Source: Cellvibrio mixtus subsp. mixtus J3-8
GTDB lineage: Bacteria > Pseudomonadota > Gammaproteobacteria > Pseudomonadales > Cellvibrionaceae
Length of the DNA: 64,000 nucleotides
Reading direction: 5' to 3'
Assembly (NCBI RefSeq): GCF_000766945.1
Contig: NZ_KN266209.1
Location: forward strand, 1-64,000
Part shown: piece after piece, positions 19,403 through 32,044 of the stretch
Layout: each line of letters begins with the position of its first letter
How positions within the stretch are numbered: position 1 is the first letter of the stretch
Notes under the pieces: generated by a model
Seen by the model: only the letters and a program-made list of their open reading frames with translations
What the model was told of the DNA's origin: nothing
The model's database searches: none
Position numbers and translations under genes: made by a program

Positions 19403-21037
19403 CTAGCGACTGCAACAAACCCTGTTACGCCCCTCGCTCTTGGCACGATAGAGTGCAGCATCAGCCTCTTGTAGTAGTTGCTCCGCGCGATCCATACCGG
19501 GACGGTAAGCGGCAATACCCGCGCAGAGACTCACATTAAAATTAATATCACCTGCGCTGAAACTGATATCGCGGAACCGCTGGCGAACATCCTCCATTAG
19601 CAATAGCGCCTCATCTCGCCCGCAACGCGGCAGCACCGCCACAAACTCTTCGCCGCCGTAACGCCCCACAGCATCGGTTTTGCGCAGACGCTGGCGCAAT
19701 AGATGGGCAATAGCTTTGATGACTTTGTCACCCGCAGGATGCCCGTAGGTATCATTGATCTGCTTGAAATGATCCAGGTCCAACATCACCACACTCAATT
19801 CATCGCCATTGCGCATGGTACGGCTCAGCTCGATATCCACCTGCTCTTTGATACGCGAATGTTTGAGCAAGCCGGTCAAGCTATCGCGATCCAATGCATC
19901 GCTCAATTGCCGGCTGCGTGCTGCACGAGTGGATACAGCGGTTATCAATTCGCGGTCACTCAACGGTTTGCTCAGGAAATCATCTCCCGCTCGCCCAAGC
20001 GCTACCGCACGTTTCTCAACATCTTGTTCAGACGATAGATACGTAATCGGAACCCGCAACCAATCCTGGTTCAAGCGAATAACTTGTGCCAGCTCTATGC
20101 CATTACACACTGGCATATTGATATCCAGCAAAACCAGATCGGGATGGAAGTCCTGTAATAACTCAAAAATATTGCGCGGATTATTGCTAATCTCAGCATG
20201 AATTCCCGCTGCTTTCAGCACTAGCTTGTAATGCTCAGCCAATGACAAATCATCATCAATAATTAATACCCTGTGGGGAGCACTGCGGTGACGATCCAGA
20301 TAAAACTCAAAACAATCCACCAACCGGATCGTATCCAATGGCTTTACAAAATAACCCACCGCACCCGCGCGTACAGCCGCATGGTAGGCATCAAAATCCG
20401 TGCGGGTGGAAACAAAAATCACCGGTATCGGTGCCGGTAGATGTTGTTGCAAGATCATTACCGCTTCCGGTGCTTCACGCCCCTCTTCAACAAACATGAT
20501 GTCGCAAATCATAAAATCGGGAGGGCGACGCAGTACTTCCGCCTCGGCAGCAGCAATGGTGGCAAAGTGTTCAACCTGGTGGCCGAAATGGCGCAGCGTC
20601 ATACAGACTTCATCGGCGATATCCGGATCATCCTCAAGAACATAAATAAGCGTGTTAGTTTTTTGTGGTGTTGTTTGCGAAACCAAAGGCATAGGTTTGT
20701 TATTGCGTTCTGCCTGCAAATCGCCGCCCAAAGCGGCAACGGCAACGGAAAACACCCGTAGCAACCCCATATCCAGCGCTTTACCCGCCAACCATTCCTG
20801 CGCTTGTAACTCCAGTTTTTTTGCTTGCTTGCCTAAATCAGTAAAGCCGAAACTACCAGCGGAACCCGCTAATTTGTGCAGCCGATGATTAAGCTGCCCC
20901 AGTGCCTCTGCACGCAATTCAGGGTTAGCCAAATCATTTACGAGTTTGCGTAGCTGTTGCAGTTCGGCGGGCAAGCGCGCGGCATAATCATCACGCAATG
21001 CTTGAAGTCTGGCTGCGATGTCAGCGTTTTTGTCCAT
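19403..21037 (-). CDS. Hpt-REC-REC-GGDEF diguanylate cyclase
   Basis: 544 residues. An N-terminal histidine phosphotransfer domain has HKLAGSAGSFG with His54; receiver 1 (about 132-250) shows VLEDDPD, the phospho-acceptor in MICDIMF and the KPLD lysine; receiver 2 (about 256-375) shows LIIDDDLS, LLDINMP and SKPLS; the GGDEF domain (about 385-544) has DLDHFKQINDTYGH and the active site GGEEF. An RxxD inhibitory site (RKTD) stands five residues before GGEEF, so product inhibition is expected. It makes cyclic-di-GMP under phosphorelay control. The Hpt and two receivers make it a plausible relay partner of the hybrid kinase at 25.3-29.3 kb (inference). Confidence 0.93.
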   Translation of the reverse strand: MDKNADIAARLQALRDDYAARLPAELQQLRKLVNDLANPELRAEALGQLNHRLHKLAGSAGSFGFTDLGKQAKKLELQAQEWLAGKALDMGLLRVFSVAVAALGGDLQAERNNKPMPLVSQTTPQKTNTLIYVLEDDPDIADEVCMTLRHFGHQVEHFATIAAAEAEVLRRPPDFMICDIMFVEEGREAPEAVMILQQHLPAPIPVIFVSTRTDFDAYHAAVRAGAVGYFVKPLDTIRLVDCFEFYLDRHRSAPHRVLIIDDDLSLAEHYKLVLKAAGIHAEISNNPRNIFELLQDFHPDLVLLDINMPVCNGIELAQVIRLNQDWLRVPITYLSSEQDVEKRAVALGRAGDDFLSKPLSDRELITAVSTRAARSRQLSDALDRDSLTGLLKHSRIKEQVDIELSRTMRNGDELSVVMLDLDHFKQINDTYGHPAGDKVIKAIAHLLRQRLRKTDAVGRYGGEEFVAVLPRCGRDEALLLMEDVRQRFRDISFSAGDINFNVSLCAGIAAYRPGMDRAEQLLQEADAALYRAKSEGRNRVCCSR

Positions 21038-21351
21038 GAATACCTGGCCTATGGAAAGGGGTGGTATTAATCAGGACACCCACCCGCAACTTATTACTTA
21101 TCAGAAATTATTAATAATCGAGCTAAATAATAGGTGTGAAACGCCAGTTTGGCGAATTTCCATAGCTCTCATCAATAACCGTAAATCGACAGTATAAAAA
21201 AACCTTATTTCTTTGAAAAAATATTATGTATCAAGTTAGCAGCCCACGCATAAAGCCTGACTATACTCAGCCAAGGAAGCTGCTAACCCTTTCACGTTAT
21301 CTCATTAGTTTGTATCCACTCATTTATTTAACCAAGTAACCCAAAAAGCTG
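21038..21351. other. 314-bp divergent intergenic region
   Basis: Lies between the divergent cyclase and HD-GYP genes and must hold both promoters. It is AT-rich. The only structure seen is an inverted repeat CGCCA-GTT-TGGCG (21142-21154) with matching GAAA/TTTC flanks, which could be an operator shared by both genes. No sigma-70 promoter stands out. Confidence 0.45.
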
Positions 21352-22575
21352 ATGTTAAAACGAATTGCTGTTAAAGATATGAAACTCGGCATGTTCATTT
21401 GTGAATTTTGTGGTTCATGGATGGAGCATCCTTTTTGGAAAACCCGCTTTTTGCTGGAAGACGAGAAAGATCTGCGCGCAATTCTGGCAAGTGGCATTAA
21501 AGAACTATGGATTGACGTGAGCCAGGGGCTGGATGTGAGTGGCGACATCACAGGCAAAACCGAAGCCGAAGTTGAACAAGAAACTGAAGCGTTATTATTA
21601 GAGGCAGAAAAACCAACATCGACTGAACGTGTTTCACTTGATGAAGAAATCCGTACTGCTGCACGATTGTGTAATAACGCAAAAAAAGCCGTTATCGAAA
21701 TGTTTAGCGATGCCCGCATGGGCAAAGCCATTGAAATTGAAAAAGCACAAGAATTGGTGGAGGAGATTTCCAACTCGGTATTGCGTCAACCACATGCACT
21801 TATCAGCCTGGCCCGTTTAAAAACAGCCGATGAATACACCTATCTGCATTCCGTGGCCGTATGCGCATTAATGATTGCTCTCGCGCGACAATTAAGCCTG
21901 GATGAAAGCACGGTACGCGATGCGGGTTTGGCGGGTTTGTTACACGATATCGGCAAAATTGCCATTCCATTGAAGGTACTCAACAAACCGGGGAAATTGA
22001 CTGACGAAGAATTTTCGATTGTGAAATCACATCCGGAAGTCGGTGCAAAAATTTTAATCGAAAGTTATCAAGTCCCACCGATGGTATTGGACGTTTGCCT
22101 TCACCATCACGAAAAAGTCGACGGTACCGGATACCCTTACGGACTAAAGGGAAGCAATATCAGTTTGTTCGCGAAAATGGGCTCAGTATGTGATGTCTAT
22201 GATGCAATTACCTCCAATCGCCCTTACAAAAAAGGTTGGTCACCAGCCGATTCCATTCGCAAAATGGCCGAATGGAGTAAGGGGCATTTTGATGAGGCCG
22301 TATTTCAGGCATTTGTTAAAACGGTAGGTATTTACCCCACAGGTTCACTGGTGAGATTGGAAAGCGGGCGACTCGCCGTGGTCATCGAACAAAACGATAC
22401 ATCTTTGCTTTTGCCCAAAGTAAAAATATTTTTTTCTGCAAAAACCAAAATGCCAATCATCCAGGAAATATTGGATTTATCCAAATTACAAGGCAAAGAG
22501 AAAATCATCGGCCGTGAATCGCCTGATGATTGGGGCTTCAAAAACCTGGATGTACTTTGGTCGGGTATAACTTGA
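21352..22575 (+). CDS. HD-GYP cyclic-di-GMP phosphodiesterase (DUF3391 N-terminus)
   Basis: 407 residues. The N-terminal domain (KRIAVKDMKLGMFICE, ELWIDVSQGLD) is the DUF3391 module common on HD-GYP proteins. The catalytic domain spans about 150-340: His166 (YLHSVAV), the HD pair H198-D199 in LLHDIGKI, and HHHEKVDGTGYP with GYP at 260-262. All metal ligands look intact, so it should hydrolyse cyclic-di-GMP. It diverges from the Hpt-REC-REC-GGDEF cyclase, pairing synthesis with breakdown at one locus. It ends only 6 bases from the convergent receiver gene with no terminator between. Confidence 0.94.
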   Translation: MLKRIAVKDMKLGMFICEFCGSWMEHPFWKTRFLLEDEKDLRAILASGIKELWIDVSQGLDVSGDITGKTEAEVEQETEALLLEAEKPTSTERVSLDEEIRTAARLCNNAKKAVIEMFSDARMGKAIEIEKAQELVEEISNSVLRQPHALISLARLKTADEYTYLHSVAVCALMIALARQLSLDESTVRDAGLAGLLHDIGKIAIPLKVLNKPGKLTDEEFSIVKSHPEVGAKILIESYQVPPMVLDVCLHHHEKVDGTGYPYGLKGSNISLFAKMGSVCDVYDAITSNRPYKKGWSPADSIRKMAEWSKGHFDEAVFQAFVKTVGIYPTGSLVRLESGRLAVVIEQNDTSLLLPKVKIFFSAKTKMPIIQEILDLSKLQGKEKIIGRESPDDWGFKNLDVLWSGIT

Positions 22576-22581
22576 TTACAA

Positions 22582-22968
22582 TCATTGTTGGCGCCCCCAA
22601 ATATCGCGCAACTGTTGCGCGAGGGTCATGGGATCAAACGGTTTAGCAATAACACCCACTGCGCCCATTTCAATATACGCCTGCACTTCCTGCGGCTGAA
22701 CTTTAGCGGTCATAAAAACCACCGGTGTTTTTTCCAGCTCTGAAAAACCACGCAAGCCTTTCAATGTTTCAGGGCCGTCCATACCGGGCATCATTACATC
22801 GAGTAAAATCAAATCCGGATTAAAAGCTACTGCTTTTTGCAATGCATCGCCGCCACAGGAACAAGCCTCCACCACAAAACCGCTAATTGTTTCCAGCACC
22901 ATCATGGCAATGGCCTGGATATCAGGATCGTCCTCAACATATAAAATCCGGGTTAATTCACGATTCAT
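22582..22968 (-). CDS. Single-domain response regulator (CheY-like receiver)
   Basis: 128 residues, receiver domain only. Acidic pocket YVEDDPD at the N-terminus, phospho-acceptor Asp in LILLDVMMPGMDG, Thr in VVFMTAKV, and Lys in IAKPFDP. It follows the sensor kinase gene by 27 bases and is probably its partner, passing signal by protein contact or back into a relay. No output domain is present. Confidence 0.93.
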   Translation of the reverse strand: MNRELTRILYVEDDPDIQAIAMMVLETISGFVVEACSCGGDALQKAVAFNPDLILLDVMMPGMDGPETLKGLRGFSELEKTPVVFMTAKVQPQEVQAYIEMGAVGVIAKPFDPMTLAQQLRDIWGRQQ

Positions 22969-22995
22969 TGTGTCATCACCTTATCAATAGGAAAT

Positions 22996-25317
22996 TTATT
23001 CTGCACGCTCGTGCAAAGGAAATATCGCATAAAAAGTGGCGCCCTTACCTGGTTCGGAATCAAATCCAATTGTGCCCTGCATACGTTCAACAAATGCTTT
23101 ACTAATTGCCAATCCCAAACCTGTGCCACCGCGTCTGCGCGAATCGGAAGAATCAGCCTGGGAAAATTTTTGGAAAATGCGCGTACGAAACTCTTCACTT
23201 ACACCGGGCCCATGATCGACCACCGCAATCTTTACATGATTATGTTGCCGGTTAACCACAATTTCCACTTGCCCTTGTGATGATGAGAACTTCACAGCAT
23301 TGGAAATTAGATTGGCCAGCACTTGTTGCAAACGCTGGGCATCAATCAATACCTGTTCATTAGTCAAATCAGTTTGCAAGACCAGACCTACGCCAAAAGT
23401 ATCTGCATAGGAACTATTTCCCTCCAGCGACTGTTGCACGATTGGTAATAAAGGCTGGACGCGCAACTCAAACTCCATTTTACCGGCAAGGAGTTTTTCC
23501 ATATCGAGTAAATCATTAATCAATAAGGTGAGACGCAGGGAATTTTTATGGGCGATGGTGAGCATATTTTTTACTGTTTCCGGCAACTCACCCAACATCC
23601 CGCTGACCACCACCCCCAGCGCGCCGGAAATAGCGGTAAGTGGTGTGCGCAATTCATGGCTAATCGTTGAAACAAAATCGTTTTTCATTTGCTCAATACG
23701 TTTACGCTCAGTAATGTCTTGTACTATTGACCATATTTGCCGCTCTCCATTTTCGCCCTCAATAACCACTCCATTTAACAGAACAGCAACAAGCTGACCA
23801 TTTTTATGGATATAGTGTTTTTCGTAAGGGCCATAGCGCCCACTGATGTGCAGTGCCTCCAACTGCTCTGATTCATCCAACCGGTATTCTTTGGGAGTAA
23901 GCTGCCAATAACTCATGCCTGCCAACTCTTCCCGGGTATAACCGGTGAGTTTGCAAAACTCGGGATTGCATTCGATAAATTCTCCAGTCGCCATACGATT
24001 GAGCGTTATTGCCACCGGAGAAAGATTGTAGAGTGACGCTAATTTTTTTTGGCTCTGCACCATAGCGTGAAGGCTTTCTTCCGCCAAGGTGATATCAAGA
24101 TGAGTTCCGGACATCCATTCCGGCTGACCGTCAGCCGTGTAGTCAGTAATACGGCCACGGGACTGTATCCAGACCCAATGGCCATCTTTATGACGCATGC
24201 GAAACTTGGATTCGTAATTCGAAAGCTCTCCGGCAAAATAGCGATCAAGTACCTGCTTCACCTTTTCACGATCATCCGGATGCAACAGCTCCCTCCAGGT
24301 CACCACGCTTCTTGCATCCAACTCATCCAAACGGTAGCCCAACATACTCGTCCACCGGTCATTAAATTGTGTCTCGCCTGTTTGTACATTCCACCGCCAA
24401 GTACCTGCATCTGTCCCTGAGATGACCGACGCCAGGCTCGCTCGCTCATGCTCCAATTCGCGTTCATGCCGTTTAAGGTGGGAGACATCTGTACCTAAAA
24501 CAAATACACCTTTTACTTGTTCCTGATGTTTCACGGGAATAAACGTGATCTTCAGGTAAAGGTCATCGTTCACCCAACATTCAAAACTCACTCGCTCGCC
24601 CGAGCCATAACAATGCGACAAATGTGATTGGAATTGTATATAGGCATTCTCCCCGCCTATTTCCACGGGCGTTCGCCCCAATAACTGTTCCGGTTCCAGG
24701 CCAAACCACTTTTTGTATTTGTGGTTAACAAATATATAGCGCTGCTGAGCATCCAATTCCCCCACTAATAAAGGAGCAGCGTTTGACAGTACTTCGAACT
24801 GCTCTGCCTGGTGGCGGATTTGGGTATTGCGTTGATGGAGCAAAAAAAGACGCTCCACCTGACGCGCTAACAGTTCCAATGTCAGTTTGTCTTGCGGTGA
24901 TAACTTTCGCGGTACCCAATCAATAATACAAAGCGTACCTAATGCTATACCTTCACTCACTCTCAGGGGGGCACCGGCGTAAAAACGAATACCAGGCGCT
25001 TGTGTCACCAGGCAATTATCAATAAAACGGGGGTCCAGGGTTGCATCTTCAACCACCATCACCTGGTTTGGATCAAGTATGGCATGGGCGCAAAAAGCCA
25101 GGTCACGCGAAGTTTCGTAGCTATCCAGGCCTACAGCGGCCTTGAACCACTGGCGCTTCTCGTCCACCAAAGACACCACTGCTACAGGGACATTGCAAAT
25201 CATCGCCGCGAGTTGGACCAGCTCATCAAAAGCCTGCTCCGGCGGTGTATCCAGTACATCCAGTCGATACAAGCAAGCCAAACGCTCGGCTTCATTGTCA
25301 GGAAAAGGCGCTTTCAT
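22996..25317 (-). CDS. Soluble GAF-PAS sensor histidine kinase
   Basis: 773 residues from the ATG at 25317, which overlaps the TGA of the upstream kinase by one base (a GTG at 25320 is less likely). A GAF domain (about 15-165, starting with the common EAERLACLYRLDVLDT block), then three PAS domains with PAC motifs (about 175-540), HisKA with the phospho-acceptor in STISHELRTPLT, and an HATPase domain with N, G1 and G2 boxes (NLISNAVKF, DHGPGV, GGTGLGLAI). No membrane segment, so it senses a cytoplasmic cue. The kinase core is strikingly like that of the upstream gene, suggesting duplication. Cotranscribed with the receiver at 22582. Confidence 0.93.
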   Translation of the reverse strand: MKAPFPDNEAERLACLYRLDVLDTPPEQAFDELVQLAAMICNVPVAVVSLVDEKRQWFKAAVGLDSYETSRDLAFCAHAILDPNQVMVVEDATLDPRFIDNCLVTQAPGIRFYAGAPLRVSEGIALGTLCIIDWVPRKLSPQDKLTLELLARQVERLFLLHQRNTQIRHQAEQFEVLSNAAPLLVGELDAQQRYIFVNHKYKKWFGLEPEQLLGRTPVEIGGENAYIQFQSHLSHCYGSGERVSFECWVNDDLYLKITFIPVKHQEQVKGVFVLGTDVSHLKRHERELEHERASLASVISGTDAGTWRWNVQTGETQFNDRWTSMLGYRLDELDARSVVTWRELLHPDDREKVKQVLDRYFAGELSNYESKFRMRHKDGHWVWIQSRGRITDYTADGQPEWMSGTHLDITLAEESLHAMVQSQKKLASLYNLSPVAITLNRMATGEFIECNPEFCKLTGYTREELAGMSYWQLTPKEYRLDESEQLEALHISGRYGPYEKHYIHKNGQLVAVLLNGVVIEGENGERQIWSIVQDITERKRIEQMKNDFVSTISHELRTPLTAISGALGVVVSGMLGELPETVKNMLTIAHKNSLRLTLLINDLLDMEKLLAGKMEFELRVQPLLPIVQQSLEGNSSYADTFGVGLVLQTDLTNEQVLIDAQRLQQVLANLISNAVKFSSSQGQVEIVVNRQHNHVKIAVVDHGPGVSEEFRTRIFQKFSQADSSDSRRRGGTGLGLAISKAFVERMQGTIGFDSEPGKGATFYAIFPLHERAE

Positions 25318-28300
25318 CACGGTGATTCCGAACCCTGCCCCGTGGTTTTAGGGGGATAGGAAGCTGAAGGGGTGGCGGGTACAGCCGCTTGTGTCAAAAG
25401 CTCTTGTATCGCCGTTACGAACTCGACAAGTTTGACAGGCTTTTGCTTCCAATAAATCGCACGCCCGGCAATCTGTGGTGGACACGCTGCTCGCCCTTTA
25501 TCAACGTCTCCTGAAATCACCAAAATAGGAACAGGATGATCATTAAAAAGGGACTCACTCTTCCGTATTTGACTAAGGATATCTACTCCAAAAATATCAG
25601 GCAGATTTAAATCCAGAATTAATAAGTCGTAATGGCGCAATGCCAGATATTCAAGCGCGGCCGTTCCCGAGGTTACCGCATCCCACTCATATTCTGCGCG
25701 CGTGAGCACCGACTGCCAGAGGTTACTCACAGACTCATCATCTTCCACAATTAATAAATGCGGTTTGGTTTTACCGGGTTCAATACGTGTGGAAGGCGTT
25801 TTTGATGTTGCGTCTTCACAGGGTAAATCAAAATAAAAACTGGCGCCCTCACCGGGTATAGATTCAACACCTACTTTGCCACCCATGCGCTCAATAATTT
25901 CCTTACAAATCGCCAACCCCAAACCTGTCCCCCCTTTTTGCCGGGTGTCTGAAGAATCCGCCTGGGAAAACTTCTGGAACAGGCGCGCACGAAAAGATTC
26001 CGGAATTCCCGGGCCTTTATCGGTCACCACAACACGGACACTACCAAAATGCAACTCAACGTTGACAGCAACCTGGTCATTCAGTGGGGAGAACTTGGCA
26101 GCATTGGATAAATAATTGGCCAGCACTTGCAGTAAACGCTGGGCATCCACAATAACTTTTACATCAACAGCCGTTGGGGATAACTGGTACGTCACACCAT
26201 ATTGGGCAGCGAAGGCAGCATTGGATTCCATGCTCTGTTGAATCAATGGCAATAACATTTGTGATTGCAAATCAAAATGCATTTTACCGGCAACCAGTTT
26301 TTCCATATCCAGCAAATCATTGACCAGATGAATTAATCGCTGCGAATTATTGTGGGCGATCCGGATCATGCGCGTTGATTGTTCAGAGAGTGTGCCAGCG
26401 AGGCCATTAACCAGGATTCCCAGCGCACCGCTAATTGCGGTTAATGGTGTACGCAATTCATGACTGACCGTAGAAATAAATTCGGTTTTCATCTGATCGA
26501 TGCGTTTGATTTCACTGATGTCACGTGCGATGCCCAAAAATCCGGTAATTTTTCCTTCAACATCGCGCAGCGCAGAGATTGTGAGGATAACAGGGAATTG
26601 GCTGCCGTCTTTGCGCACATAACGCCATTCATTTTCATCGCTATTGCCTTCACGCGCTTTGGCAACAAAGGTTTCAAAGCCAGGTTTAACTTCGTAGCCC
26701 AACTCACACGTCAAGTGATGCGCATGCGCAACAATTTCTTCCGGTAAATGCATAATTGCTGGCGATTGTTTATCAATTATTTCGGCAGCGGTGTAACCCA
26801 ACATTAATTCCGCTCCCAAATTAAATGTTTTGATGGTGCCGTTAATATCGGTGGAAATAATAGCAACACTCGCTGCGTCCAGGATCGCCTTGCGCAATGA
26901 GTTGGTTTCTTGCAATTGTATTTCTGCTTGCTTGAGCGGTGTGATATCTGAAACATATCCATGCCAAAGAACACTGCCATCTTCCAGTTTTTCCGGAATG
27001 GATTCGACATGTGTCCAGATCATGCCACGCACCGGGTGGTTTACTCGCACGGTTGCAACCCAGGGTGTTAAATGCGATGCGGAATAGGAAACACTTTCAC
27101 TCACCCACCCCACATCATCCGGATGAATAACTTCAAATACTTTTTGTGCCGAAGTGGCAACATCTTCCGGTGCAACGTTATAAATATTTTTCATGCCGGG
27201 GCTGGCATAAGGGAAAAATGAACTGCCATCGGGGCGCAGCTGGAATTGATAGAGGAAACCTGGCAAACGCTCGCTGAGTTTTTGGAAACGGTTGAGGATA
27301 ATTTTTTTTTCGCGCTCCTGCTGCCAGCGCTCGACGACAGAACTTATCCAGCGCGCCAGCAAGCGCACAAAATCTTTATCCAGGGCATCGTATTGGTGAT
27401 GGCGGGTTTTGCGCGAGAAGAAACATAAAGTGCCGTATATACGATCATGAATCCATAACGGCACACCTATATACGTTTCAATTTGCGTAAGCAAATACGA
27501 TGGATGCTGCTTGTGTTCACTCGCCGGAATATCATCTTCTGCAAATACATCGCGCAACGCGACGGTAATACCGCAATAATTTTTACCCAGGTGGTTGGAG
27601 ATGGAAACATCTTTATTGCCCTGCGCAGAAAACTGCACATGCACGCGATAATCCTCACCATTGATTTCGCTGATAACACCGCAGCTCAACCCCAAATAGC
27701 GCGCCCCCAAACTCAGTGCCAAACGCAATTGTTCCGCCGGGTCCACCGCAGAAAGCGAAGCGATTTCATTAAGCGAATGCAACGCCGCTTGCTGGCGAAT
27801 GCTGACCAGCTCGGTATTTTTGCGCTCGGTAATATCGGTGTACACGCCCAACATCAGCGCAGCCCTGCCATCGGGCTGCCACTCCACGACTTTGCCGCGC
27901 GTGAGAATCCATTTGTAACTGCCGTCATGTACTTTAAGCCGATACTCATTTTCGTACATGGCGGTCTCGCCTTTGATGTGGCGAATAATATCGCTGTAAC
28001 TCACGCGTTTGTCGGCGGGGTGGACCCGACTCATCCACTCATCCAGATCCAGCGAGCTCGGTGACTCGGGAGGAATACCACACAACTGGCGCCACTCCGG
28101 CGAAAAGATCGCTTTATCGTGGGCGATATCCCACTCCCAAAAGCCGGAATCACTGCTGCGCAATGCCAGTGCCAGGCGCTGGCGCGCCTGTTCGCTCTGG
28201 GCGTGTTCTGCTCCCATTTGCTGGCTGTAATGGTTGATAAGTTGTTTGATGTAAGAGCGATTCAAACGAATAAATCCAACCAACAACAATTGCGCACACA

Positions 28301-29309
28301 CCAATGCCGCCAACCATTTGGCAATCACCCGCTGGCGAATAGACTGGTAACTGTCATAGGCCCGGGTGATGTCATTCCACACCAGCATCGCCAAACCGGA
28401 ATCCTCATCGGGCACTTCCACCTGTTTAACCGGCCACCAGGAAACCAGAAACGTTTTACCGGCGTCCTGCAGTAAATGCCCCTGCTGGTTAATAGGAATC
28501 AAGCCGCGACTCCACCAGCTATTCAATTGTGGGTCGCTACTTTCCTCAAGGCGCCAGTCATCAACGACGGTAGGATTTTTTTGATTAAGGGTCTGGCGGA
28601 TTTGCTCCCACAATACTTGCTCAACAGCTGCCTTGCGCAAGAACATCGCCATTTGCATCGGCAGCGGCTCACCATCCCGGCTTTGCGGGATAGAGGACAT
28701 CCCCACCTCCAACACGGCAATAACCCCGCCAGATTGATCTTCCCGCGCCATAATAGGTAGCACCGCGCGATGGCCGCTGCCATGGCGGGAAATATCTTCC
28801 CCCCAGCCGGGCAAACCGGAACTGAAAGCATTGGTGACCAAGGGGCGCAAACCACTCAGGCTATCGCCAAAGCGATCCGGGCGATGCATACGCAAAAAGG
28901 CGATAGCACCGGGCGAATAATAAATACTGAGCTGGCGCACCCCCAGCGCCTCCATACTGCTCCAGCTATCGTGCAACATGGCTTGCAGCGCGGTGCGGGC
29001 GGCGCCAAGCTGTTCGGGGGTAACCTGGCCATCAGCGTTCGCAAACACCGCATGGGTGCGGCGAATTTCGTTAACAATCGCCACGTCCCGCACCAATAGC
29101 TGCGCCAATAACATGGCTTGCTGGGTAAGGTCGCGCCGACTGGCCTCCATATAATCTTTTTGGGTTTGGACGTTCCAGGCCAGGCGCTCTTCCCACACTT
29201 GTTGATGCACCTGCAAATCGGCGCGCATGAATAGTAAAAATACCAACGCCAGTGCCGTAGCAGATAGCCAGGGCAACCACTGGTAAAGGCGTTTAGTATT
29301 CGACTGCAT
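25317..29309 (-). CDS. Membrane-bound multi-PAS hybrid histidine kinase
   Basis: About 1330 residues. TM1 (about 12-30), a large periplasmic sensing region of some 290 residues, TM2 (about 325-345), then PAS, GAF, PAS, PAS, HisKA (STVSHELRTPLT), HATPase (NYLSNAAKF, DKGPGI, GGTGLGLAI) and a C-terminal receiver (IVEDDES, LLILDLNLPD, KQKPVK). The start at 29309 places the signal-anchor at the N-terminus; an upstream frame start at 29348 would add 13 residues. A hybrid kinase needs an Hpt protein to pass its phosphate on; the only Hpt in view is on the cyclase at 19.4-21.0 kb. First gene of a three-gene operon. Confidence 0.92.
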   Translation of the reverse strand: MQSNTKRLYQWLPWLSATALALVFLLFMRADLQVHQQVWEERLAWNVQTQKDYMEASRRDLTQQAMLLAQLLVRDVAIVNEIRRTHAVFANADGQVTPEQLGAARTALQAMLHDSWSSMEALGVRQLSIYYSPGAIAFLRMHRPDRFGDSLSGLRPLVTNAFSSGLPGWGEDISRHGSGHRAVLPIMAREDQSGGVIAVLEVGMSSIPQSRDGEPLPMQMAMFLRKAAVEQVLWEQIRQTLNQKNPTVVDDWRLEESSDPQLNSWWSRGLIPINQQGHLLQDAGKTFLVSWWPVKQVEVPDEDSGLAMLVWNDITRAYDSYQSIRQRVIAKWLAALVCAQLLLVGFIRLNRSYIKQLINHYSQQMGAEHAQSEQARQRLALALRSSDSGFWEWDIAHDKAIFSPEWRQLCGIPPESPSSLDLDEWMSRVHPADKRVSYSDIIRHIKGETAMYENEYRLKVHDGSYKWILTRGKVVEWQPDGRAALMLGVYTDITERKNTELVSIRQQAALHSLNEIASLSAVDPAEQLRLALSLGARYLGLSCGVISEINGEDYRVHVQFSAQGNKDVSISNHLGKNYCGITVALRDVFAEDDIPASEHKQHPSYLLTQIETYIGVPLWIHDRIYGTLCFFSRKTRHHQYDALDKDFVRLLARWISSVVERWQQEREKKIILNRFQKLSERLPGFLYQFQLRPDGSSFFPYASPGMKNIYNVAPEDVATSAQKVFEVIHPDDVGWVSESVSYSASHLTPWVATVRVNHPVRGMIWTHVESIPEKLEDGSVLWHGYVSDITPLKQAEIQLQETNSLRKAILDAASVAIISTDINGTIKTFNLGAELMLGYTAAEIIDKQSPAIMHLPEEIVAHAHHLTCELGYEVKPGFETFVAKAREGNSDENEWRYVRKDGSQFPVILTISALRDVEGKITGFLGIARDISEIKRIDQMKTEFISTVSHELRTPLTAISGALGILVNGLAGTLSEQSTRMIRIAHNNSQRLIHLVNDLLDMEKLVAGKMHFDLQSQMLLPLIQQSMESNAAFAAQYGVTYQLSPTAVDVKVIVDAQRLLQVLANYLSNAAKFSPLNDQVAVNVELHFGSVRVVVTDKGPGIPESFRARLFQKFSQADSSDTRQKGGTGLGLAICKEIIERMGGKVGVESIPGEGASFYFDLPCEDATSKTPSTRIEPGKTKPHLLIVEDDESVSNLWQSVLTRAEYEWDAVTSGTAALEYLALRHYDLLILDLNLPDIFGVDILSQIRKSESLFNDHPVPILVISGDVDKGRAACPPQIAGRAIYWKQKPVKLVEFVTAIQELLTQAAVPATPSASYPPKTTGQGSESP

Positions 29310-30940: not shown

Positions 30941-32044
30941 TTACTTCTTGTTTTCTTTCAACATCACTTCACGGAAATGCTTGCCTTGCATGGTAGGTTC
31001 ATAGGTTTTGTAATCCTTGAACATTTGCGGTGACCAATCCGGGTCAAACACCCAACCCACCCAGCTAATACCTTTGTGACCAAAATAATCAGTGATGCGT
31101 TTGCCATAACTGCCATCATCAATCACCGGTATGTGCGCCCCCTTATCGGTTGCCAGTTGATAACCAATTTCGGTCGCAAAGACCGGATATTTATCCGCCG
31201 CAAACCCAAAATCGCGGTCCCAGTTTTTTTCATAAGGCGCGTCGACTTTCATTGGGTAAGGATGGCTGACGTAAGCAATGTTATCGCGCTCAATAGGTGT
31301 TTTAGCGATGGGCGTTAAATCGTAAGCCCAATTAAACCCTGCAACCAATGAAATGGCTTTAGGATTATGCGCTTGAATAATGGTAATAATTTCTTCGTTA
31401 ATGGCTTTCCACTCTTCCCAGCTGACTATACCGAGGCGGCCATTAAATACCGTGGGCTCATTAAATATTTCGTAAAACGCCACGGCATTAACACCGGCAT
31501 AACGCTCGGCGACCGTGCGCCAGAAATCATAAGTTTCGGGCTTATCAGTGTAATAGGAATTATTCTGGAACATTTGCGATTTCAAATTGCCAATCGAATG
31601 CCAATCCAGGATCACATACATTCCCAACTCGTTGGCCCAGATCACGGTTTGGTCGAGCATCGCCAGGTAGGCTTTTTTCCCGTGTTTGCGCCAGGCAGAT
31701 GGATGCACCGGCACACGCACTACATTAGCGCCCCAGGATTGAATAACTTCAAAATGTTTTTTAGTGAAGTGTTTATCGCGTGAAATTTTATCCGGGTCAG
31801 AAATATTCAAGCCGCGAAATACCATCACCTTGCCGGCGTCATCGACAAACTTATTGCCCTGCACTTTGATCAGTGGCAACTGTTTGGCGATTTTGGTTTT
31901 ATCAAACGCGGGAACATCGGTTTGGTTCCACCAGCCACTGGTATTTTCCCAGGCATTGTCAGCAAAACAAAGGGAACTGGCAAACAGCGAGCTAATAAAA
32001 AATAATGAACAAAAAATTGTCAGGTAGTAACGCAGGGTTCTCAT
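30941..32044 (-). CDS. Secreted GH5 glycoside hydrolase (endoglucanase-like)
   Basis: 367 residues with a signal peptide (about 1-28, cleaved near CFADN). A GH5 TIM barrel follows: VFRGLN at strand 1, NVVRVPVHP, ILDWHS, acid/base Glu196 in EIFNEP, HPYPM, and nucleophile Glu292 in FATEIGY. It should cleave beta-1,4-linked glucan or a related polysaccharide outside the cytoplasm. No carbohydrate-binding module or linker is attached, unlike many cellulases of such bacteria, and the catalytic domain carries a 40-residue N-terminal extension. The exact GH5 subfamily and substrate cannot be fixed by eye. Single gene; 221 bp separate its start from the tamB end, with no promoter I can name. Confidence 0.9.
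   Translation of the reverse strand: MRTLRYYLTIFCSLFFISSLFASSLCFADNAWENTSGWWNQTDVPAFDKTKIAKQLPLIKVQGNKFVDDAGKVMVFRGLNISDPDKISRDKHFTKKHFEVIQSWGANVVRVPVHPSAWRKHGKKAYLAMLDQTVIWANELGMYVILDWHSIGNLKSQMFQNNSYYTDKPETYDFWRTVAERYAGVNAVAFYEIFNEPTVFNGRLGIVSWEEWKAINEEIITIIQAHNPKAISLVAGFNWAYDLTPIAKTPIERDNIAYVSHPYPMKVDAPYEKNWDRDFGFAADKYPVFATEIGYQLATDKGAHIPVIDDGSYGKRITDYFGHKGISWVGWVFDPDWSPQMFKDYKTYEPTMQGKHFREVMLKENKK

Follow-up and report, generated by a model that had tools for sequence, protein, structure and literature searches.

A probable phosphorelay ending in an Hpt-bearing diguanylate cyclase in Cellvibrio mixtus

We describe a five-gene locus of Cellvibrio mixtus subsp. mixtus J3-8 that probably encodes a phosphorelay ending in a diguanylate cyclase, in which sensor kinases would pass phosphate to a free receiver (REC), then to the Hpt domain of the cyclase and finally to one of the receivers of the cyclase itself. 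This likelier relay would be Spo0-like in its layout. The gene content of the locus, its intact residues and its conserved arrangement are consistent with this reading, and the free receiver and the Hpt-bearing cyclase are found together almost constantly. Receiver-controlled c-di-GMP enzymes usually obtain phosphate directly from a kinase. Widespread Hpt-bearing cyclases with a dedicated free receiver would show several sensors funnelled onto one cyclase, and the relay model yields simple one-residue predictions. The same pair of free receiver and cyclase is found again in numerous gammaproteobacteria of sea and soil, as a conserved, little-tested c-di-GMP switch.

The analysed window is a stretch of 64,000 nucleotides. 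All five genes named in a preliminary description of this DNA proved to be real, and the open reading frame listing and Pfam confirmed their positions and domains, with catalytic and phospho-site residues intact wherever they were checked (Table 1). On the minus strand, the hybrid kinase gene is followed by the soluble kinase gene with a 4-bp overlap and, after a further 27 bp, by the free receiver gene. The HD-GYP gene ends 6 bp from the end of the free receiver gene on the opposite strand, and the cyclase gene is divergent from it. The locus is flanked by bamE, fur and recN on one side and by rnfH, ratA and smpB on the other, these names being given by family resemblance. The membrane segments of the hybrid kinase were read by eye from the sequence. 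The cyclase was also said to carry the sole Hpt, which holds at the locus; genome-wide there are 16 Hpt matches, and this rules it out as the only one of the genome.

Table 1. Features of the locus, with positions in the window
Feature	Position	Strand	Basis
Diguanylate cyclase, Hpt-REC1-REC2-GGDEF, 544 aa	19403..21037	-	Pfam, catalytic residues, AlphaFold model
GGDEF domain of the cyclase, GGEEF 461-465, RxxD inhibitory site R452/D455	19412..19888	-	Pfam and residue alignment
REC2 of the cyclase, residues ~256-371, D305; likely terminal acceptor	19925..20272	-	Pfam and residue alignment
REC1 of the cyclase, residues ~130-248, D179	20294..20650	-	Residue alignment
Hpt domain of the cyclase, residues ~10-110, phospho-acceptor H54 in HKLAGSAGSFG	20708..21010	-	Pfam and model
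Promoter-like box of the cyclase gene, TCGCCA-17-TATTAT	21127..21155	-	Promoter scan and conservation
DUF3391-HD-GYP c-di-GMP phosphodiesterase, 407 aa, no receiver	21352..22575	+	Pfam, residue check
Free receiver, REC only, 128 aa; proposed Spo0F-like intermediate	22582..22968	-	Pfam, comparison
Soluble histidine kinase, GAF-PAS-PAS-PAS-HisKA-HATPase, no receiver	22996..25320	-	Pfam
Membrane hybrid kinase, dCache(weak)-PAS-GAF-PAS-PAS-HisKA-HATPase-REC, ATG start	25317..29309	-	Pfam

In the cyclase, the Hpt match lies above the Pfam cut-off (35-39 bits), and the AlphaFold model folds the domain as a four-helix bundle (residues 3-35, 42-62, 66-83 and 90-110) with H54 in the middle of the second helix. 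The mean pLDDT of the model is 81, and its pTM of 0.51 is too low for arguments on domain packing. The phospho-histidine is present in all 57 aligned relatives, a count that is partly circular because the loci were selected by Hpt/REC1 patterns. In REC2, the acid pair, the D, the S/T and the K are each kept in at least 50 of the 57, whereas in REC1 only 43 retain an acid (D or E) at the second acid position and 46 retain S or T at the S/T position, the acid pocket of REC1 being degraded in part of the relatives. Because its active site is kept more strictly than that of REC1, REC2 is the likelier terminal acceptor, and the phosphate would probably end there. GGEEF and RxxD occur in 56 of the 57 sequences, the remaining one being gapped there. 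By these residues the protein is predicted to be an active diguanylate cyclase (GG(D/E)EF) with an RxxD site for feedback.

Both kinases and the free receiver are intact at all residues examined. Around the phospho-histidine the two kinases have 45 of 68 residues in common, which is consistent with both serving one receiver. The E, D, D, T and K of the free receiver are invariant in 21 sequences from the loci of relatives, whose adjacent free receivers align as a single family, and the genome of the strain has no other receiver matching it at E<=1e-25. On sequence grounds, this family is distinct. The FATGUY motif (PMC9981736) was set aside as a mark of intermediate receivers because the free receiver has FMTAKV, which resembles it only loosely. 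As a separate observation, the soluble kinase has only about 50% identity to the kinase encoded at the same place in the closest relatives, against 85-94% for its neighbours, and its length and sensor domains vary between relatives, which can be read as fast exchange of sensor modules.

From these residues and the comparisons below we infer how phosphate moves at each step and in which direction, which receiver accepts it, and that the outcome is activation as opposed to inhibition, as follows. Both sensor kinases would autophosphorylate and then phosphorylate the free receiver, which would hand the phosphate to the N-terminal Hpt of the cyclase. The Hpt would then pass it on to one of the cyclase receivers, with REC2, which adjoins the GGDEF domain, as the likeliest, and the phosphorylated receiver would raise c-di-GMP synthesis. 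The HD-GYP enzyme, which has no receiver, would lower c-di-GMP independently of the relay. The Spo0 phosphorelay of Bacillus subtilis (KinA-E, Spo0F, Spo0B, Spo0A) has a similar inferred layout, with several kinases, one free receiver, a phosphotransferase and a terminal receiver; in contrast, the Hpt and the terminal receiver of Cellvibrio are fused to the cyclase. Spo0B differs from the canonical monomeric Hpt, and the terminal component Spo0A acts as a transcription factor. Regarding the kinases without a receiver that mark a Spo0-type relay, the soluble kinase fits, the hybrid kinase has its own receiver, and half of the related loci have only non-hybrid kinases.

Scanning genomes with the Hpt-REC1 part gave 80 loci, of which 56 have the order Hpt-REC-REC-GGDEF and 50 of these lie outside Cellvibrio. 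The hosts of the latter include Gilvimarinus, Pseudomonas, Halopseudomonas, Stutzerimonas, Vreelandella, Nitrincola, Marinobacter, Saccharospirillum, Idiomarina, Rhabdochromatium, a Desulfonatronum bin and others, with most loci in Pseudomonas and its relatives, Gilvimarinus and Halomonas relatives. These 50 loci are related by descent and not independent, and their domains were called with profiles built from the same sequences, not with Pfam. In 47 of them a free receiver gene precedes the cyclase gene on the same strand at a distance of no more than 100 bp, and the two genes often overlap by a few bases. A hybrid kinase is found within the flank in 24, and the other 26 have only kinases without a receiver there, 24 of these with an adjacent free receiver; the flanks extend no further than 10 kb, and some are cut short by contig ends, so that kinases further away would be missed. 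Among 146 genomes of the order, nine have both an Hpt-REC relative and the free receiver, three the Hpt-REC only, nine the receiver only and 125 neither (Fisher p=1.4e-7, uncorrected for ancestry), which supports a link between the two. In G028, moreover, two paralogous cyclases each have a free receiver of their own. The nine genomes with the receiver only count against the relay reading.

Since about half of the loci show no hybrid kinase in their flanks and nearly all keep the free receiver, the latter is the stronger candidate for the His-Asp-His intermediate. The preliminary description proposed that the hybrid kinase could phosphorylate the cyclase receivers through the Hpt of the cyclase; a relay through this Hpt is still the best reading, with the free receiver probably taking the place of the hybrid kinase as donor. 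Absent from the flanks of 26 of the 50 non-Cellvibrio loci, the hybrid kinase is unsupported as an obligatory donor, and its receiver is at most an alternative one. A relay running from this receiver to the Hpt and on to the cyclase receivers, with the soluble kinase and the free receiver as side branches, is in our view unlikely, given that the free receiver is adjacent in 47 loci. It would be in keeping with the retention of D1233 and K1290 of the hybrid receiver in 17 of 17 orthologues, and with the presence of the hybrid kinase in the mapped Cellvibrio loci that have the cyclase as well as in four of five Gilvimarinus loci. Within Cellvibrio, where it is intact in nearly all genomes, the hybrid receiver could act as donor.

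Direct two-component control has a somewhat lower probability still. Here phosphate would go from the kinases directly to the cyclase receivers, in the manner of PleD and WspR, and the free receiver, as a sink or a side output, would take phosphate off through the Hpt. REC-REC-GGDEF does match PleD along its full length, and Hpt phosphotransfer is generally reversible; however, PleD and WspR need no Hpt, and a forward relay explains equally well or better why the Hpt and the free receiver are kept together, direction being something that sequence cannot show. A relay internal to the cyclase, in which phosphate from a kinase would reach REC1 first and then, by way of the Hpt, REC2 of the same protein or dimer, is very improbable. 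Such a relay could account for two Cellvibrio paralogues (L053 and L055) whose mapped surroundings show kinases beside the cyclase and neither a hybrid kinase nor an adjacent free receiver, but the degraded REC1 acid pocket in part of the family extends to these same two.

Within Cellvibrio (21 genomes, own included), the hybrid kinase gene is kept in 20 genomes and the locus stays at one chromosomal address. The genes are thus not scattered among relatives; scattering is what the preliminary description had named as a refutation of its reading. An Hpt-REC-REC-GGDEF gene is present in 14 genomes, the copies of G008 and G011 being cut by contig ends. In six of the 20 genomes having the locus, the cyclase slot is swapped: G003, G005, G006, G009 and G017 have a GGDEF-EAL protein there and retain the hybrid kinase and the free receiver, which counts against the relay reading, and G020 has an Hpt-REC-REC-GGDEF-EAL protein. 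Kinases, free receiver and HD-GYP gene therefore form a stable core with an exchangeable output enzyme. Genomes without a local Hpt-cyclase mostly have an Hpt-REC-REC relative elsewhere, and G015, which has no close hybrid kinase or free receiver, also has no such relative; both observations favour the relay reading. G006, which keeps the free receiver with no such relative found in its genome, counts against it. G018 combines the cyclase with a PAS-GGDEF-EAL protein, and in G023 the free receiver lies directly upstream of the cyclase, overlain by an antisense frame. The strain itself has an Hpt-REC-REC paralogue (L065:9438-11900, contig C12) with a degenerate GGDEF-like stretch lacking the GGDEF motif, followed by EAL; it has relatives in other Cellvibrio genomes, and no free receiver gene was seen beside this copy.

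Two further loci encode Hpt-REC-REC-GGDEF-EAL proteins with SGDEF and the EAL motif (L118:3017-5485 and L125:4073-6541), each in a cluster with an Hpt-REC-REC-GGDEF gene, two kinases and one free receiver. The opposing enzymes of these clusters each have their own Hpt. Because both enzyme types share one cluster there and the EAL version occupies the cyclase slot in G020, we tentatively raise, as a possibility well short of an even chance, that Hpt-REC-REC is an exchangeable input cassette through which a single free receiver drives two opposing enzymes side by side, a cyclase and an EAL phosphodiesterase. If so, one relay would set both the making and the breaking of c-di-GMP. Separately, in several Pseudomonas, Halopseudomonas and Marinobacter loci (L085:11746-12870, L112:11623-12786 and similar) the cyclase is followed by a REC protein of 370-390 aa, HDOD-like by eye at its C-terminus, a possible second relay output.

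The HD-GYP protein had been counted among the parts of the relay, from which we remove it because it has no receiver; moreover, an HD-GYP gene is nearby in only one of the 50 non-Cellvibrio loci. H198, D199, K202, GYP 260-262, H166, H252 and R290 are invariant in 20 sequences, and from these HD, GYP and metal-ligand residues the protein is predicted to be a phosphodiesterase. It looks like a near-exclusive Cellvibrio addition, inserted into an older REC-cyclase operon, and the simplest history would be an ancestral kinase-receiver-cyclase operon that received the HD-GYP gene in Cellvibrio.

In the 314-bp region between the cyclase and HD-GYP genes, two elements are kept in relatives. The first, GAATAATAGG with GTTTRGCCAAT, contains on the minus strand a TATTAT resembling a -10 and, 17 bp before it, a box resembling a -35, both oriented towards the cyclase gene, and the second, GACTATACTCA, lies before the HD-GYP gene. 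By score alone such promoter-like boxes are at chance level in the promoter scan, and the argument is their conservation. The inverted repeat proposed to be shared by the two genes, CGCCAGTTTGGCG at 21142-21154, exists and overlaps the -35 of the conserved box of the cyclase gene. As an operator it is not supported, since it is a 5-bp palindrome at chance level (two in the window vs 0.94 expected) and is intact in none of 12 aligned relatives.

The order Hpt-REC-REC-GGDEF had been thought uncommon. A match spanning Hpt and REC1 occurs in 39 of 276 Gammaproteobacteria (about 14%, own included, counted by eye, part of them longer, EAL-type frames), which agrees with this; the order itself was already described in 2018 in chemosensory cluster 2 of Halomonas titanicae KHS3, whose authors were aware of no cyclase of that layout that had been characterised (PMC5907407). 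The listing of that cyclase beside CheA2 and CheY2 counts for the relay reading (PMC5907407). With an N-terminal Hpt bearing its phospho-histidine, two receivers and a GGDEF domain, the Cellvibrio protein matches that cyclase, which also has GGEEF and RxxD, potentially phosphorylatable residues in the Hpt and both receivers, and a free receiver (CheY2) listed adjacent. The input there is a chemoreceptor and CheA2, whereas Cellvibrio has PAS/GAF histidine kinases and an inserted HD-GYP gene. Because these kinases are its neighbours and no CheA or CheW is found among the annotated ones, we regard the Cellvibrio protein as the same type of cyclase and not as a member of the H. titanicae pathway.

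PleD of Caulobacter likewise has tandem receivers before GGDEF and is the best-scoring solved fold for the Cellvibrio cyclase, but it has no Hpt. In PleD the phosphorylated receiver is REC1, whereas REC2 is better conserved in the Hpt-REC-REC-GGDEF family. The cyclase scores 194 bits against the NCBIfam PleD equivalog and does not reach its cut-off of 474. A multi-step relay onto a cyclase, with an experimentally supported Hpt step, is known from CdgK-CdgS of Anabaena (PMC9927289); unlike in Cellvibrio, the Hpt is on the hybrid kinase and not on the cyclase. The word Hpt is nowhere in the text of a 2022 review of c-di-GMP sensory input (PMC8846402), and searches of the open-access literature gave no further case of Hpt-REC with GGDEF, N-terminal Hpt with GGDEF or Spo0F-like relays to cyclases. 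What is new here is the histidine-kinase-fed version with a near-obligate free receiver and a swappable output, the domain order being already known.

Near the locus, a GH5 cellulase gene lies between smpB and tamB (30941-32044), with a close match at the same place only in G013, G010 and G014 among the mapped relatives.
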